A stretch of DNA of 34,337 nt from Alphaproteobacteria bacterium (lineage in GTDB: Bacteria; Pseudomonadota; Alphaproteobacteria; GCA-2731375). Shown here one piece after another: positions 21,624-27,286 of this stretch. The position numbers and the translations under genes are program-made. The notes below the pieces were generated by a model. It had not been told where the DNA came from and did no database searches. It was given only the letters and a program-made list of their open reading frames with translations. The stretch's first letter is position 1; each line of letters begins with the position of its first letter. The DNA lies in contig VGEV01000023.1 of assembly GCA_016869175.1 (NCBI GenBank), positions 1-34,337 of the forward strand, read 5' to 3'.

Positions 21624-22912
21624 TATCCGCTGACCTTTCCTTTTGGCGGGGCGATCCATGCTGCGGGATCGATCGGCTCGCCCTTGGCGCGAACCTCCAG
21701 ATAAAGGGTCCGCTCGCCTTCGCCGCGCCCCATCTCGCCAACGGGTTCGCCTCGCCGCACGCTATGACCGACTTCGGTATGCAGCCTTGCCAAGCCCGCC
21801 AGCAGAACATGATAGCCGTCGCCGTGCGCCAGGATCAAGACGAGCCCATAGTCGCGAAACGGCCCGGCGAAGGCCACCCGGCCGTGATAGGGCGCCACCA
21901 CTGTCGCCTCCGACCGGGTGGCGATGCGCCAGCCCCGTGCCCTCTGCCCTGCGGCATTGCTCTCTCCAAACTGGCCGATCGTCTCGCCGGCGACCGGCGA
22001 CAGGATCAGCCCGCGCGCCTTAGCAAATGGTTGTGCGACGGCATCCTTCGCAAGGCCCGGGTCGGCGGGCTGAAGGACGGCCGGTTCCGCCCGGCGCGGC
22101 TGGGACTGGCGGGACTCGGTCTCGGCGCGCTGCCGCTCCTGCTCAGCCCGGCGTGCCTGTTCCTCCGCCGCGCGGCGGGCTTGCGCCTCCTCTTCCAGCC
22201 GGCGCACGAGCTGTTTCAGGTCCGCCGCCTGCCCCGTCAGCCCGGCCAGGCGCAGGCTTTCCTGCTGGCCGGCCTGCCGGGCATGGCCTTCATCCAGCTC
22301 GCGTTGGCGCAACAGATCGGCCAGCCGGCGACGCTCCAGGGCAAGCGTCGACTGTTCCGTCGCCAGCCGGGCCTGCTCCGTCGCCAGGTCGCTCTCGTGT
22401 TCGGCCAGCCGCGCCAAGCGCTGGTTCAGCGCTGCCACCTGGTCGGCAATGCTCTCGCCGGCGGCCGCCAACAGCCGGCTGCCGCGCACCACTTGCAATG
22501 TGCCTCCCGGTGCCAGCAGGGCGGTGCCCGGCGGCTGCCGCGCCAGCCGCGCCAGCGTCTCGGCCAGCCGCGCCAGCTCCTCGCGGTTTGCCTGCAAGTC
22601 CTGTCGCTGCGTTGCGATCTCTGCCTGGAGCGCGGCCGCCCGCGCCTCGGCGTCGCTCAGGCGCAGTTCTGCCGCCTGCACCCGCTCCGCCGTATCGGCC
22701 AGCTTCTGGCCGATCGCCTGCACCTCGCGCTGCAGCCGCTCGGCATCCTGGCGCAGTTCGCGCTGCTGCTCCTGGGACTTGCCGATCTCCTTCTCGACCG
22801 CATCGAGTTGCCGGCGCGGCTCCGCCGCATCGGCGGCCCCGGCCGGCGGCGTTCCGCCAGGCCAAGCCAGAAAGCCAAGCACCAAGCCCCAGGTTGCCAG
22901 GTTCCTAGGCAA
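21623..22912 (-). CDS. envC: EnvC-like murein hydrolase activator with degenerate M23 domain
   Basis: A 429-residue protein. It has a signal peptide (about 1-26), a very long Gln/Glu/Arg/Ala-rich coiled coil (about 32-275) and a C-terminal LytM/M23 domain (about 300-420). In the M23 domain the metal ligands are missing. The first His-x(n)-Asp pair is absent around 'ESNAAGQRARGWRI', and the second motif reads 'HVLLAGL' where active enzymes have a His before the Leu. Such degenerate LytM proteins do not cut peptidoglycan; they activate amidases (AmiA/B/C type) at division sites. The gene follows gpmI with an 8-bp overlap and precedes ctpA with a TAATG overlap, a conserved trio in alphaproteobacteria. 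Confidence 0.88.
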   Translation of the reverse strand: MPRNLATWGLVLGFLAWPGGTPPAGAADAAEPRRQLDAVEKEIGKSQEQQRELRQDAERLQREVQAIGQKLADTAERVQAAELRLSDAEARAAALQAEIATQRQDLQANREELARLAETLARLARQPPGTALLAPGGTLQVVRGSRLLAAAGESIADQVAALNQRLARLAEHESDLATEQARLATEQSTLALERRRLADLLRQRELDEGHARQAGQQESLRLAGLTGQAADLKQLVRRLEEEAQARRAAEEQARRAEQERQRAETESRQSQPRRAEPAVLQPADPGLAKDAVAQPFAKARGLILSPVAGETIGQFGESNAAGQRARGWRIATRSEATVVAPYHGRVAFAGPFRDYGLVLILAHGDGYHVLLAGLARLHTEVGHSVRRGEPVGEMGRGEGERTLYLEVRAKGEPIDPAAWIAPPKGKVSG

Positions 22913-24488
22913 TCGCGCGCCGCAACGCTGGCACGCCCCGGCACAGCAGCGAACGGCCGGTCATCAGCACCGGCTGCGGCAGCCCCAGCAATTGCAGCAG
23001 GGTGGGCGCGATGTCGGCCAGCCGCCCGTCCGCCAGGGTTACCGCATGGCCGGCATTGAGCAACAGGGCGGGCACCGGGTTGGTGCTGTGCGCCGTCTGT
23101 GGCTCGCCGCTGTCCGGATCGCGCATCTGCTCGCAATTGCCGTGGTCCGCCGTAATGAACAGGCAGCCGCCCGCCGCGCGGACCGCCGCCTCCAGTCGGC
23201 CAAGGCAGCGGTCCACCGCACCCACCGCCTGGATCGCCGCCTGCAAGTTGCCGGTATGTCCCACCATGTCGGGGTTGGCGTAGTTCACCACGATGAAGTC
23301 GAATCGGCCCGAGCGAATCGCTTGTTCCAGTCTAGCCGTGACTTCGTAGGCTGACATTTCCGGCTGCAGGTCATAGGTGGCAACTTTCGGCGAAGGCACC
23401 AGGATCCGTTCCTCGCCCGCAAACACCCGCTCCTCGCCGCCGTTCAGGAAGAAGGTGACGTGCGCGTATTTCTCGGTCTCGGCGATGCGCAATTGGCATA
23501 GGCCGGCTGCGGCCACCACCTCGCCGATTGTCGCCTCCAGCGGCTCGGCCGGGAACAACGCCGGCAGGAACGCATCGAGCGCCGTGGAATAGCTTGCCAG
23601 GCCCAGGCCCGCGGCGAACCGGACGGTGCGTTGCCGCGGGAAGCCGTCGAACCGGGGGTCGAGCAGGGCGGTCAGGATCTCGCGCGCGCGGTCGGCGCGG
23701 AAATTGGCGAACAGCAAGCCGTCGCCGTCGGCCATCCCGCGATAGCCGGCCAATGCCACCGGCTCGAGGAATTCGTCGGTGCGGCCCTGGGCGTAGCTGT
23801 GCTGGATGGCGGCGTCGGCGTCCGTTGCGACGGCGCCCTCGCCGTCGACCAGCAAGGCATAGGCCCGCGCCACCCGTTCCCAACGCCTGTCGCGATCCAT
23901 GGCGAAGTAGCGGCCGCAGAGACTGGCCAGTCGGATGCCGGTCTGGCCGGCCACCGCGGCCAGGAAATCCCGGACATGGGCGGCGGCGCTCTGCGGCGGG
24001 GTGTCGCGACCGTCGAGAAAGGCATGCACCGCAACCGGCACGCCCGCCCCCGCCAACAGCCAGGCCAGGGCCGCGACATGCGCCTGGTGCGCATGCACGC
24101 CGCCCGGCGACAGCAGGCCCATCAGGTGGCAGCGGCCGCCGCTCCGCCGCAGCTTGGCGACGAAATCGTCCAGCGCCGCGTTCCGCGCCAGCGAGCCGTC
24201 GGCGATGGCGCGGTCGATCCGCGGCAGATCCTGATAGACCACGCGGCCGGCACCGATATTCTGGTGACCGACCTCGGAATTACCCATCTGCCCCTCGGGC
24301 AGGCCCACATCGCCGGCCGAGGTCTTCAGCAGGGCGTGCGGCTCGTTTGCCCACCAGCGCTTGAAATTCGGCGTCTCGCCCAGCGCAATGGCGTTGTCCT
24401 GGCGCGTTTCGCTGTGCCCCCAGCCGTCCAGGATGCACAACACCACCGGTCGCCGGCGGGGAAGGTGAGGGGGCTCAGGTTCGGTCAT
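22905..24488 (-). CDS. gpmI: 2,3-bisphosphoglycerate-independent phosphoglycerate mutase
   Basis: A 527-residue Mn-dependent enzyme of the alkaline phosphatase superfamily that interconverts 3- and 2-phosphoglycerate. Visible are 'LCILDGWGHSE' (metal-binding Asp), 'TSAGDVGLPEGQMGNSEVGH' (phospho-accepting Ser region), 'FLDGRDTPP', 'ANPDMVGHTG' and 'ITADHGNCEQM'. The start at ATG 24488 lies 9 bp after the enolase-superfamily gene and has only a poor ribosome-binding site, so expression may depend on coupling to that gene. The N-terminal ~13 residues (Pro/Arg-rich) are somewhat longer than usual; a GTG about 13 codons in is an alternative start. Confidence 0.96.
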   Translation of the reverse strand: MTEPEPPHLPRRRPVVLCILDGWGHSETRQDNAIALGETPNFKRWWANEPHALLKTSAGDVGLPEGQMGNSEVGHQNIGAGRVVYQDLPRIDRAIADGSLARNAALDDFVAKLRRSGGRCHLMGLLSPGGVHAHQAHVAALAWLLAGAGVPVAVHAFLDGRDTPPQSAAAHVRDFLAAVAGQTGIRLASLCGRYFAMDRDRRWERVARAYALLVDGEGAVATDADAAIQHSYAQGRTDEFLEPVALAGYRGMADGDGLLFANFRADRAREILTALLDPRFDGFPRQRTVRFAAGLGLASYSTALDAFLPALFPAEPLEATIGEVVAAAGLCQLRIAETEKYAHVTFFLNGGEERVFAGEERILVPSPKVATYDLQPEMSAYEVTARLEQAIRSGRFDFIVVNYANPDMVGHTGNLQAAIQAVGAVDRCLGRLEAAVRAAGGCLFITADHGNCEQMRDPDSGEPQTAHSTNPVPALLLNAGHAVTLADGRLADIAPTLLQLLGLPQPVLMTGRSLLCRGVPALRRAIA

Positions 24489-24497
24489 GGCAATCGT

Positions 24498-25661
24498 TCA
24501 GGCTGGCACCGCGTAGCCGCGGAGATAGTCCCAATCGAGTTCGACGCCAAGGCCCGGGCCTTCCGGCAGGCCGACGCTGCCGCCGCTTTCGCGCACCTGC
24601 GCCAGGATGCGCAAGGGCCGTTGCAGCATGGCGTCGCGAAAGCGGCTCTCGGTCGTATCGAACTCTAGCATGGGCGGGGTTGGCGCGATGCCGCCGGGCA
24701 AGTCCGGCAACGCGGCCAGCAGATGCAAGTTCACGGCCACCGACAAGTTGGAACCCCAGACATGGTTAACCACCGGCACGAAGTGAGCATGCGCCAGGGC
24801 CACGATCTTGAGATACTCGCTGATGCCGCCCAGCCCGCAGACCTCGGGCTGCACCAGATCGACACAACGTCCTTCCAGCAGGTCGCGGAAGCCCCAGCGA
24901 GTGAACTCGCCTTCGCCACCGGCGATCGGCATGTCGAGTGCCTGGGCCAGGTCGCGATAGCCCTGGCGGTCCTCGTTGGCGACCGGCTCCTCGAACCAGG
25001 CGACCCCCAGCCGTTCCAGTTCGCGCCCCAGGGGCAGGGCTTCTCGCGCGGTGTAGCAACGGTTGGCGTCGACCATCAGGTCGATATCGTCGCCGATCGC
25101 CTGCCGCACGGCCGTCGCCAACGCCAGGTCGGGCTTCGGACCCAGCCCGATCTTCATCTTCAGCGCGCGAAAGCCGAGGCCGACCAGTTCGCGTGCTTCG
25201 TCGGCGAAGCTGTTGGCCAGGCCCGCCTCCCGGCGCAACATCATGCCGTAGCCATAGACCGGAATGCGTTGCCGGCAGGGGCCGCCCAGCAGGCGGTAGA
25301 GCGGCAGGTTGGCGGCCTTGCCGGCGATGTCCCAGAGCGCGATGTTGATGCCGCTCAAGGCCTGCAGCAACAGGCCTTTCTGCCCATGGTCGCGCAGACC
25401 GTTGTACACCTTGTGCCACAGTCGTTCGCGCGCCAGCGCGTCCTCGCCCAGCAGCAGCGGCGCCAGGGTGCGTTCGACGATGGCCCGGTTGGCGAGCGCC
25501 ACCGTGCCCGCCCCGAAACACTCGCCAAGGCCGATCAGGCCTTCGTCGGTGACGACCTCGACGAAATGCGCCGTGCGCTCGCTGTAATAGGCTTGGCTGT
25601 AGCCCAGTTCGTGGGTCAGGGGATGGCGGAACACGTGGCTGCGGATGGCCACGATCTTCAT
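24498..25661 (-). CDS. Mandelate racemase / muconate lactonizing enzyme-type enolase-superfamily protein
   Basis: A 387-residue (beta/alpha)7beta-barrel enzyme. The N-terminal capping domain has 'GLIGLGECFG', and the barrel shows a KxK pair (Lys168, Lys170 in KMK), metal ligands Asp198, Glu224 and Glu250 (DANR, FEEP, GGEGE) and His300 in NHVWG. The KxK plus His arrangement is that of the mandelate racemase subgroup, which abstracts a proton next to a carboxylate, typically racemising or dehydrating hydroxy acids or sugar acids. The substrate is not readable. ATG 25661 overlaps the stop of the selenoprotein gene as ATGA, so the two are coupled; upstream in-frame ATGs are rejected. It is not part of the usual rlmH-gpmI neighbourhood, so it seems to have been added together with the selenoprotein gene. 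Confidence 0.88.
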   Translation of the reverse strand: MKIVAIRSHVFRHPLTHELGYSQAYYSERTAHFVEVVTDEGLIGLGECFGAGTVALANRAIVERTLAPLLLGEDALARERLWHKVYNGLRDHGQKGLLLQALSGINIALWDIAGKAANLPLYRLLGGPCRQRIPVYGYGMMLRREAGLANSFADEARELVGLGFRALKMKIGLGPKPDLALATAVRQAIGDDIDLMVDANRCYTAREALPLGRELERLGVAWFEEPVANEDRQGYRDLAQALDMPIAGGEGEFTRWGFRDLLEGRCVDLVQPEVCGLGGISEYLKIVALAHAHFVPVVNHVWGSNLSVAVNLHLLAALPDLPGGIAPTPPMLEFDTTESRFRDAMLQRPLRILAQVRESGGSVGLPEGPGLGVELDWDYLRGYAVPA

Positions 25662-26779
25662 TGCCGGGCGCCGCCTTTCTCGCCGGCGGCGGCGAACCGG
25701 TCGATGCCGATCGCGCCACGGAAATCGGCGGTGTCGTCCGCCTTCCATTGCTCGAGCGGAATGCCGGTGGCGTCGGCCACCCGGTCGATGGCGTTGAACA
25801 GCCCGGCGACCGCGGCCGCGTCGATCAGCCCCGCCCCGCCCAGCGCGGACGCCAGTTCGGCCCGCGCGTCGACCAGCGCCGGCTGATCGCGCGCCACCAC
25901 GGCCTCCGCGAAGCGCAGCAGCGGGCCGCCCTGGGGAACGCTGCCGCCCCGCCCGTCGTCACCCGCCGTCATCACCGAAAGCACATAGTCCGCACCCGCG
26001 TGTTGGCCGCTCGCACGGAGCAGCTGCGCATGGCTGGTGGTTCAATAGACGCACTGGTTCAAGGCCGAGACACGTCCGGCGATCAGTTCGATCTGCGCAT
26101 GGCTGATCGCGCGCGGTTCGCGCGCGTAGTCGCGCATCGCCGCCGCCGGCAGATACTGCGTTTCAACCAGGTCGAAGAAACCGCGCACCTCATCCGGCAC
26201 CAAACTCAGGGCCTGGCGTACATAGGCGCCGGTGCTCCCGGCATAGAGGTCGGCTTCCGCGGGCTGCACGGTCTTGGGATGGATCATCGGCACCCAGGCC
26301 CGTCCGGCGTCGAGGCCGGTGGGGCGATAGCCGCTGGGCGCGCCCGATACCGGCACCGGCAGCGGCCAAGGCGCAAGGCCAAGCGCCAGTCGGAACGTGT
26401 CGACCGCCGTCACCGTCGCCACCACGCCGATCAGCTCGACATATTGCTCGTCCGACAAGCCCTGGCCACGCAGGCCTTCCCGCCAGGCCCGGCTGAGCCG
26501 GCCGGGGTCGCTGACGATGCGATGCACCGCCTCGACCTGCGGCAAGGGCAAGGCGCCCAGGCTGTCGTGCCGACCCGGCACCGCGCCCGGCGTCAGCGCC
26601 GCGCTCCGCTCCCGGCACAGCCGGCAGTTCTGCGCCTGCCGGGCCTCGGCCGCGATGGCCACGCGCTCGGCGCCGGAGAACCACGTCCCGGCCCGGGCCA
26701 GTCGTCGCCAAGCCCGCGCATGCGCAGCCTGCAGGTCCTCGCGCACTGGCCATGGCGCGTCGTCATGGTTCACGGACAT
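25658..26779 (-). CDS. Alkylhydroperoxidase (AhpD/CMD)-related selenoprotein; in-frame TGA at 26042-26044 read as Sec
   Basis: A 373-residue product if TGA 26042-26044 is read as selenocysteine. Residues 240-250 then read Leu-Asn-Gln-Cys243-Val-Tyr-Sec246-Thr-Thr-Ser-His250, the CxxCxxxH site of AhpD/carboxymuconolactone decarboxylase-like redox enzymes with Sec replacing the second Cys. The frame continues 127 codons past the TGA with similar composition and ends in an ATGA overlap with the next gene, as expected for an intact ORF. The N-terminal half is a second, diverged CMD-like domain with a CRLC pair (Cys52, Cys55) but no His four residues on. The middle segment 'PDEVRGFFDLVETQYL' leads into the C-terminal domain. 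ATG 26779 has a good AGGGAAG ribosome-binding site. A hairpin fitting a bacterial SECIS follows the TGA. The family function is probably thiol/selenol peroxidase or reductase; the substrate is unknown. Sec insertion is inferred, since selA/B/C/D are not in the window. Confidence 0.87.
26006..26024 (-). promoter_or_regulatory. Putative bacterial SECIS hairpin
   Basis: On the minus strand, 17 nt after the TGA, GCTGCTC (26024-26018) pairs with GAGCGGC (26012-26006), seven pairs including one G-U, closing a 5-nt loop CGTGC (26017-26013). The loop begins 24 nt after the TGA. Bacterial SECIS elements are known to be short coding-region hairpins just after the UGA, with a small apical loop that has a G among its first two bases; this one fits. 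SelB binding is inferred. Confidence 0.72.
26042..26044 (-). other. Sec-encoding TGA codon (recoding site)
   Basis: An in-frame TGA at codon 246 of the alkylhydroperoxidase-related gene, preceded by TGC-GTC-TAT (Cys-Val-Tyr) and followed by ACC-ACC-AGC-CAT (Thr-Thr-Ser-His). TGA is used as a normal stop by several neighbours (for example rppH, the SDR at 8528 and the deacetylase), so a general TGA-to-Trp code is excluded. Confidence 0.85.
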
Positions 26780-26830: not shown

Positions 26831-27286
26831 CTAGCGGTGATAGGGATGGCCGGCCAGAATGCTGGCCGCGCGATAGAGCTGCTCGGCCAACAGCACCCGC
26901 GCCAGCAGGTGCGGCCAAGTCATGGGCCCAAGCGATAGCCGTGTTTGCGCACGCGCCGCCACGACTTGGTGCAGCCCCTCGGCGCCGCCGATCACAAAGG
27001 CGAGATCGCGCGGACCGCGCTCCCGCCATTGCCCCAGCAGCCCGGCAAAGCCGGCGCTGTCGAGCGCCGGGCCGGCGCGGTCGAGCGCCACCAGATGGGC
27101 GCCGGCGGGCACTTTCGCCAGCAGCAGCTCGCCCTCGCGCCGGGTCAACTCGGCGGCATGGAGCCGTCGGCGCTCGACCACCTCGACCACACGCGTGGGC
27201 CAGGGCAGCCGCCGCAGGTAGAGCTCGACCAGGGCCTGTTCCGGCGTGCCGTCGGCCTTGCCCACCGCCAGCAGGGTGAGCCGCAC
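26831..27286 (-). CDS. rlmH: 23S rRNA (pseudouridine-1915-N3) methyltransferase
   Basis: A 151-residue SPOUT-class methyltransferase that acts on helix 69 of 23S rRNA in assembled 70S ribosomes using S-adenosylmethionine. The knot region 'LAFVIGGAEGLHQVV', the 'LSLGPMTWPHLLARVLLAEQLYRA' segment and the terminal 'AGHPYHR' are characteristic, as is the N-terminal 'MRLTLLAVGK'. It starts 9 bp after rsfS. A 51-bp gap without obvious signal separates it from the selenoprotein gene. Confidence 0.96.
   Translation of the reverse strand: MRLTLLAVGKADGTPEQALVELYLRRLPWPTRVVEVVERRRLHAAELTRREGELLLAKVPAGAHLVALDRAGPALDSAGFAGLLGQWRERGPRDLAFVIGGAEGLHQVVAARAQTRLSLGPMTWPHLLARVLLAEQLYRAASILAGHPYHR

Follow-up and report, generated by a model that had tools for sequence, protein, structure and literature searches.

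A selenocysteine-decoding member of the alkylhydroperoxidase-related (seleno)protein family NF041238 in an alphaproteobacterial genome

The window considered here, the whole stretch of 34,337 nucleotides that was analysed (contig VGEV01000023.1 of an alphaproteobacterial assembly), carries on its minus strand two overlapping genes between rlmH and gpmI. One of the two contains an in-frame TGA codon directly within its predicted active site. The features of this locus are:

22905..24488, minus strand: gpmI (2,3-bisphosphoglycerate-independent phosphoglycerate mutase), downstream flank; TIGR01307, 640.8 bits
24498..25661, minus strand: enolase-superfamily gene (mandelate racemase/muconate lactonizing type); Pfam MR_MLE_N and MR_MLE_C; ATGA overlap with the selenoprotein gene
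25658..26779, minus strand: selenoprotein gene, NF041238 (AhpD_rel_CFYUT); 373 residues including Sec246, translated with TGA as U; TGA stop at 25658-25660
26006..26024, minus strand: bacterial SECIS-type hairpin GCUGCUC-CGUGC-GAGCGGC, with its start 18-19 nt downstream of the UGA and a small apical loop that includes G and U
26030..26053, minus strand: predicted active site C243-V-Y-U246-T-T-S-H250; C243, U246 and H250 invariant in 114/114 non-redundant relatives
26042..26044, minus strand: Sec codon UGA (codon 246); TGA in the same column in 114/114 non-redundant relatives
26087..26089, minus strand: Glu231, predicted counterpart of the catalytic Glu of AhpD, 12 residues before Cys243; invariant in 114/114, aligned with the Glu of Deinococcus radiodurans AhpD (6k40)
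26270..26779, minus strand: predicted N-terminal helical domain, approximately residues 1-170 (AlphaFold2 pLDDT 95.7); Cys52-x-x-Cys55 missing from a single divergent clade
26831..27286, minus strand: rlmH, upstream flank; NCBIfam and Pfam RlmH matches

The selenoprotein gene occupies a single frame that is made up of two ORFs, 26042-26779 (245 aa) and 25658-25984, with one TGA between them. Reading this TGA as Sec completes the C243 to H250 motif and adds 127 codons before the terminal TGA, which forms an ATGA overlap (25658-25661) with the start codon of the next gene; in all these details, the sequence-only reading from which this analysis set out was correct. Such a frame is far beyond chance, because the full-length family profile crosses the TGA unbroken and all 114 relatives have a TGA in the same column. 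Standard gene calling would split the gene and cut it before the active site, and the gene model is corrected accordingly.

The translated product matches the NCBIfam family NF041238, titled "alkylhydroperoxidase-related (seleno)protein", with 478.1 bits (E 1.8e-143; curated cut-off 175 bits), residues 12-363 covering positions 1-356 of the 357 in the profile. The C-x-[YF]-(U/C)-T motif of this family is present as CVYUT, and all examined relatives have U. The CMD core also scored over the respective thresholds (PF02627, 28.4 vs 23; TIGR00778, 32.5 vs 27.8), while the match to TIGR01926 (peroxidase-related enzyme) stayed at 52.1 bits, below its cut-off of 81.8. Together with the AhpD-type structures retrieved by sequence and fold comparison, these matches support the relation to AhpD and CMD that had been proposed from the letters. 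We are highly confident that the gene is a Sec-decoding member of NF041238, a statement about its identity rather than its reaction; computation established the gene, its Sec codon and SECIS, the decoding machinery, the family and the fold.

In a phylum-wide NF041238 search, no genome but the own passed the cut-off, and the matches below it were mostly to the C-terminal CMD part of the profile; we therefore turned to searches of the GTDB family and the class. The gene was present in 14 of 15 genomes of the same GTDB family and in 27/385 genomes of the class, every match having exactly one TGA. In a genome collection, a single-protein query found no relatives, its patterns being too specific to the own sequence; an alignment query found 502, of which the best 80 were combined with 56 loci from the family and class searches. 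In all of these 136 loci (114/114 after removal of duplicates) the TGA sits at the column of Sec246 within CxxU-x-x-x-H, and both halves of the protein are conserved. We found no Cys form at position 246 among these loci, although the sequence-only reading had proposed to search for such homologues, yet rarer Cys forms may exist among the collection loci beyond the best 80 of 502. Nor did any of these loci stop naturally at this position, which would have spoken against that reading. A plasmid search returned no relatives, Cys forms included. The relatives belong to Alphaproteobacteria and to records titled Gammaproteobacteria, Deltaproteobacteria, Candidatus Binatia, Myxococcales and Thermoanaerobaculia. 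Genomes of the same GTDB family have up to three selenoprotein copies in separate tree clades (NQCVYU, NGCYYU and LGCYYU types; L050-L078) and other genomes of the class up to four; the own genome has a single one. It encodes, besides, an ordinary Cys-containing peroxidase-related CMD protein with the motif NHCFYCLSAH (C134:585-923).

About 19-36 nt downstream of the TGA, a hairpin was folded in the own sequence and in 55 relatives. Downstream of the TGA, nearly all relatives have UGCUC-CGUGN-GAGCG in common, its five-base loop containing a conserved G and U. Across 54 distinct rows, 94.8% of cells pair; shifting one side by one to three columns lowers this to 33-60%. Conservation of the stem lies more in its sequence than in compensatory change, and compensatory changes are few because the SECIS sequence is itself conserved. 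The strongest evidence for the SECIS is the constraint on synonymous sites: of the 247 degenerate codon sites, the seven whose third base is best conserved are codons 254, 256, 253, 248, 257, 258 and 255, each lying within or next to the hairpin (third-base conservation 0.85-1.00, gene mean 0.53). Codon 256, for example, encodes Ala, Glu, Gly or another residue, yet its third base is always G, pairing with the invariant C of codon 254. The Rfam scan of the window returned tRNA-Ser as its sole match. In one divergent clade (L099-L101), the SECIS stem is altered (UUCCUC-CGUGA-GAGUGGA) and CxxU is kept.

The own genome (3.97 Mb, 100% complete) encodes the complete set of Sec-decoding genes that was to be looked for, all on one contig (C80): selA (547.9 bits, cut-off 267.9), selB (402 bits, cut-off 242), tRNA-Sec (70.2 bits, gathering threshold 47; identified by ARAGORN as tRNA-SeC with anticodon tca) and selD as part of an Ndh-SelD fusion (260 bits, cut-off 125). 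A lack of selB or selC, named beforehand as the finding that would overturn the sequence-only reading, is thereby ruled out for this genome. The sel genes form one cluster (C80:232-8719), in which selA-selB are followed by two sugar-enzyme-like genes, presumably glycosyltransferase-like and UDP-sugar-dehydrogenase-like, and then by tRNA-Sec and the fusion gene. The sole formate dehydrogenase alpha subunit match over the cut-off (C114:9716-11764) has no in-frame TGA and therefore gives no reason for the retention of the Sec machinery in that genome. In one clade (L133, L134, L203, L209, L212, L221) no more than about 7 kb separates the selenoprotein gene itself from selA-selB and the Ndh-SelD fusion. 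Across the class, selB was over the cut-off in 54/385 genomes, and these include all 27 with NF041238 (hypergeometric 8e-27, an indicative figure only, given that the genomes are related and not independent). The proposal of a selenoprotein is thus borne out by the machinery, the conserved TGA, the hairpin with its third-base constraint and the co-occurrence with selB.

Two other explanations of the internal TGA can be weighed against this body of evidence. Were it a genuine stop or a pseudogene mutation, with the second ORF a relic, nothing beyond the TGA itself would speak for it, and the same TGA would have to recur in 114/114 relatives with both halves conserved, in the presence of a full set of sel genes and of codon constraint after the TGA; we consider this next to impossible. 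Equally implausible is an alternative genetic code with UGA read genome-wide as Trp or another residue, for which we found no support: TGA is also the terminal stop codon of this gene, relatives terminate with TAA, TAG or TGA, the genome has a tRNA-Sec(tca), and codon 246 falls where AhpD relatives have Cys.

An AlphaFold2 model built from 44 sequences is confident (pLDDT 95.7, pTM 0.94) and nearly all helical, and can be read as two helical domains, the C-terminal one with an AhpD-type Glu-Cys-Sec-His set. In both the sequence-profile and the fold comparison, the closest solved structures are AhpD-type (6k40, 3c1l, 2prr), with the C-terminal domain nearest to D. radiodurans AhpD and to peroxidase-related proteins. 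In AhpD of Mycobacterium tuberculosis, the catalytic set consists of Glu118, Cys130, Cys133 and His137, the second Cys being peroxidatic. The invariant E231, C243, U246 and H250 match the Glu-Cys-x-x-Cys-x-x-x-His set at equal spacing (as seen here against 6k40), with the AhpD Cys aligned at the Sec column. Since that second Cys is peroxidatic, Sec246 would replace the peroxidatic Cys.

The N-terminal domain is harder to place. In a comparison of N- and C-domain profiles, a local E of 0.0017 went along with a probability of only 15%; we therefore rejected a clear duplication of the C-terminal into the N-terminal domain, and the sequences do no more than suggest that one is a duplicate of the other. 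Cys52-x-x-Cys55 occurs in 110/110 alignment rows with letters at these positions, but the divergent clade with the altered SECIS stem is without both Cys, so the pair is not essential to the family. Together with H71 and H86, C52 and C55 form a possible metal site.

How might this protein work? UGA codon 246 would be decoded as Sec by SelB and tRNA-Sec, aided by the hairpin just downstream. By analogy, the selenoprotein would act like AhpD, and we lean, with some reserve, towards peroxide reduction. Sec246, made reactive via Glu231 and His250, would reduce a hydroperoxide (or a similar electrophile) and be converted to a selenenic acid, which Cys243 would resolve into a Cys-Sec selenenylsulfide; the latter would then be reduced by a cellular thiol or a disulfide carrier. 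The N-terminal domain probably makes up the rest of the helical bundle, in the manner of a pseudo-dimer, and Cys52-x-x-Cys55 may relay electrons without being strictly required. Among the related loci, we found no conserved gene partner that would point to substrate or reductant.

Against peroxide reduction stands the less probable, though serious, alternative that this is a real NF041238 selenoprotein with a different chemistry, namely a thiol/selenol oxidoreductase, a dehalogenase or another CMD-fold enzyme acting on an organic substrate. The CMD fold is catalytically diverse, AhpD/CMD-fold proteins including decarboxylases and a debrominase (Bmp8), and the model yielded weak fold matches to Bmp8 (6ohj, 6ohi). 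Besides, AMP-binding, acyl-CoA dehydrogenase and enoyl-CoA hydratase genes lie near some relatives, and any acyl-CoA-type gene was found near 21/40 loci as compared to 11/40 matched controls (40 regions from the same genomes or close relatives). This neighbourhood signal is weak, however, coming from related genomes with a query partly derived from the loci and with most families singly not significant, and the active-site set is that of AhpD. Acyl-CoA metabolism as a conserved neighbourhood was rejected for want of a robust signal, only AMP-binding reaching p 0.037, uncorrected and with a query from the loci. More speculatively, and in our estimate rather improbably, the protein could be an essentially Sec-only two-domain CMD enzyme that acts on an organic substrate by a redox or dehalogenation step rather than by peroxide reduction, and in which Cys cannot substitute. 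If that were so, marine Alphaproteobacteria with several paralogues in one genome would have enzymes that differ in specificity.

The sequence-only reading had further drawn attention to the pairing with the enolase-superfamily gene, and here the comparison with relatives led elsewhere. A dedicated two-gene system would agree with the shared strand and the ATGA overlap, which makes translational coupling possible in the own genome. Yet none of 120 related selenoprotein loci (some being the same place fetched twice) had an enolase homologue nearby. In 12 of the 13 other GTDB-family genomes that have both rlmH and gpmI, the two genes are adjacent, about 94-150 nt apart (the 13th has them on separate contigs), while in the own genome 2.3 kb with the selenoprotein and enolase-superfamily genes separate them. 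Elsewhere in the GTDB family, the nearest enolase homologue is 40% identical. The closest plasmid relatives (59-63%) come from marine bacteria, and one of these has a sugar-acid cluster around it: on a plasmid of Pseudoalteromonas carrageenovora, a red-alga isolate, a 63% identical homologue adjoins genes for 2-dehydro-3-deoxygalactonokinase and 2-dehydro-3-deoxy-6-phosphogalactonate aldolase (a galactonate-type cluster), and that plasmid has no selenoprotein. A two-gene system is hence very unlikely, and the 0/120 loci together with the intact rlmH-gpmI junction rule out a conserved operon; the pairing is an accident of the own genome. Most likely, the enolase-superfamily gene encodes a sugar-acid enzyme and was acquired separately, and it is probably not functionally linked to the selenoprotein.

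With respect to known proteins, the kind described here is already on record. The 2005 Sargasso Sea selenoproteome contained, as 'hypothetical protein 1', four Sec-containing sequences with a conserved CXXU and bacterial SECIS elements, for which a redox function was proposed (PMC1088965); the further counts of 7 and 5 in Table 2 of that study are taken to refer to Cys homologues, from the Sargasso data and from sequenced genomes, respectively. A 2026 review equates NF041238 with this 'AhpD-related protein (hypothetical protein 1, Sargasso Sea metagenome)', CxxU (PMC13188914). Family, Sec and SECIS have thus been known since 2005, and the NCBI library already has a model. Nor is the two-domain architecture little described, as had been supposed, for it equals the full length of NF041238 and of hypothetical protein 1 (PMC1088965, PMC13188914). 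Our study adds little that is new in kind. Its new elements are modest: the Sec-only usage in all examined relatives, the map of synonymous constraint at the SECIS, the two-domain model and the insertion at the rlmH-gpmI junction. Even so, NF041238 is catalogued but functionally blank, and with Sec in every examined relative it is well suited to studying why Cys cannot take the place of Sec.

In direct comparison, the protein resembles NF041238 and hypothetical protein 1 in its full-length match, the CxxU-T motif and the bacterial SECIS, and differs only in having CVYU (the family name has CFYU) and in a genomic neighbour unique to this genome. AhpD-like (COG2128/TIGR01926, CxxU) and CMD-like (PF02627, CxxU) selenoproteins, families catalogued apart from NF041238, share the CMD core and a Sec at the second position of CxxU. 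Unlike these, the protein has an extra N-terminal domain, and its TIGR01926 score remains below the cut-off. D. radiodurans AhpD (6k40) and the peroxidase-related proteins 2prr, 2oyo and 3c1l have the fold of the C-terminal domain and the Glu-Cys-x-x-Cys-x-x-x-His set, but are about half as long, about 20% identical and have Cys instead of Sec. Finally, Sestrin 2 (5t0n, 5dj4) likewise combines two CMD-like helical domains in one chain, an analogy of architecture only, as the superposition is weak (TM about 0.45, rmsd above 12) and the protein is eukaryotic and without Sec.
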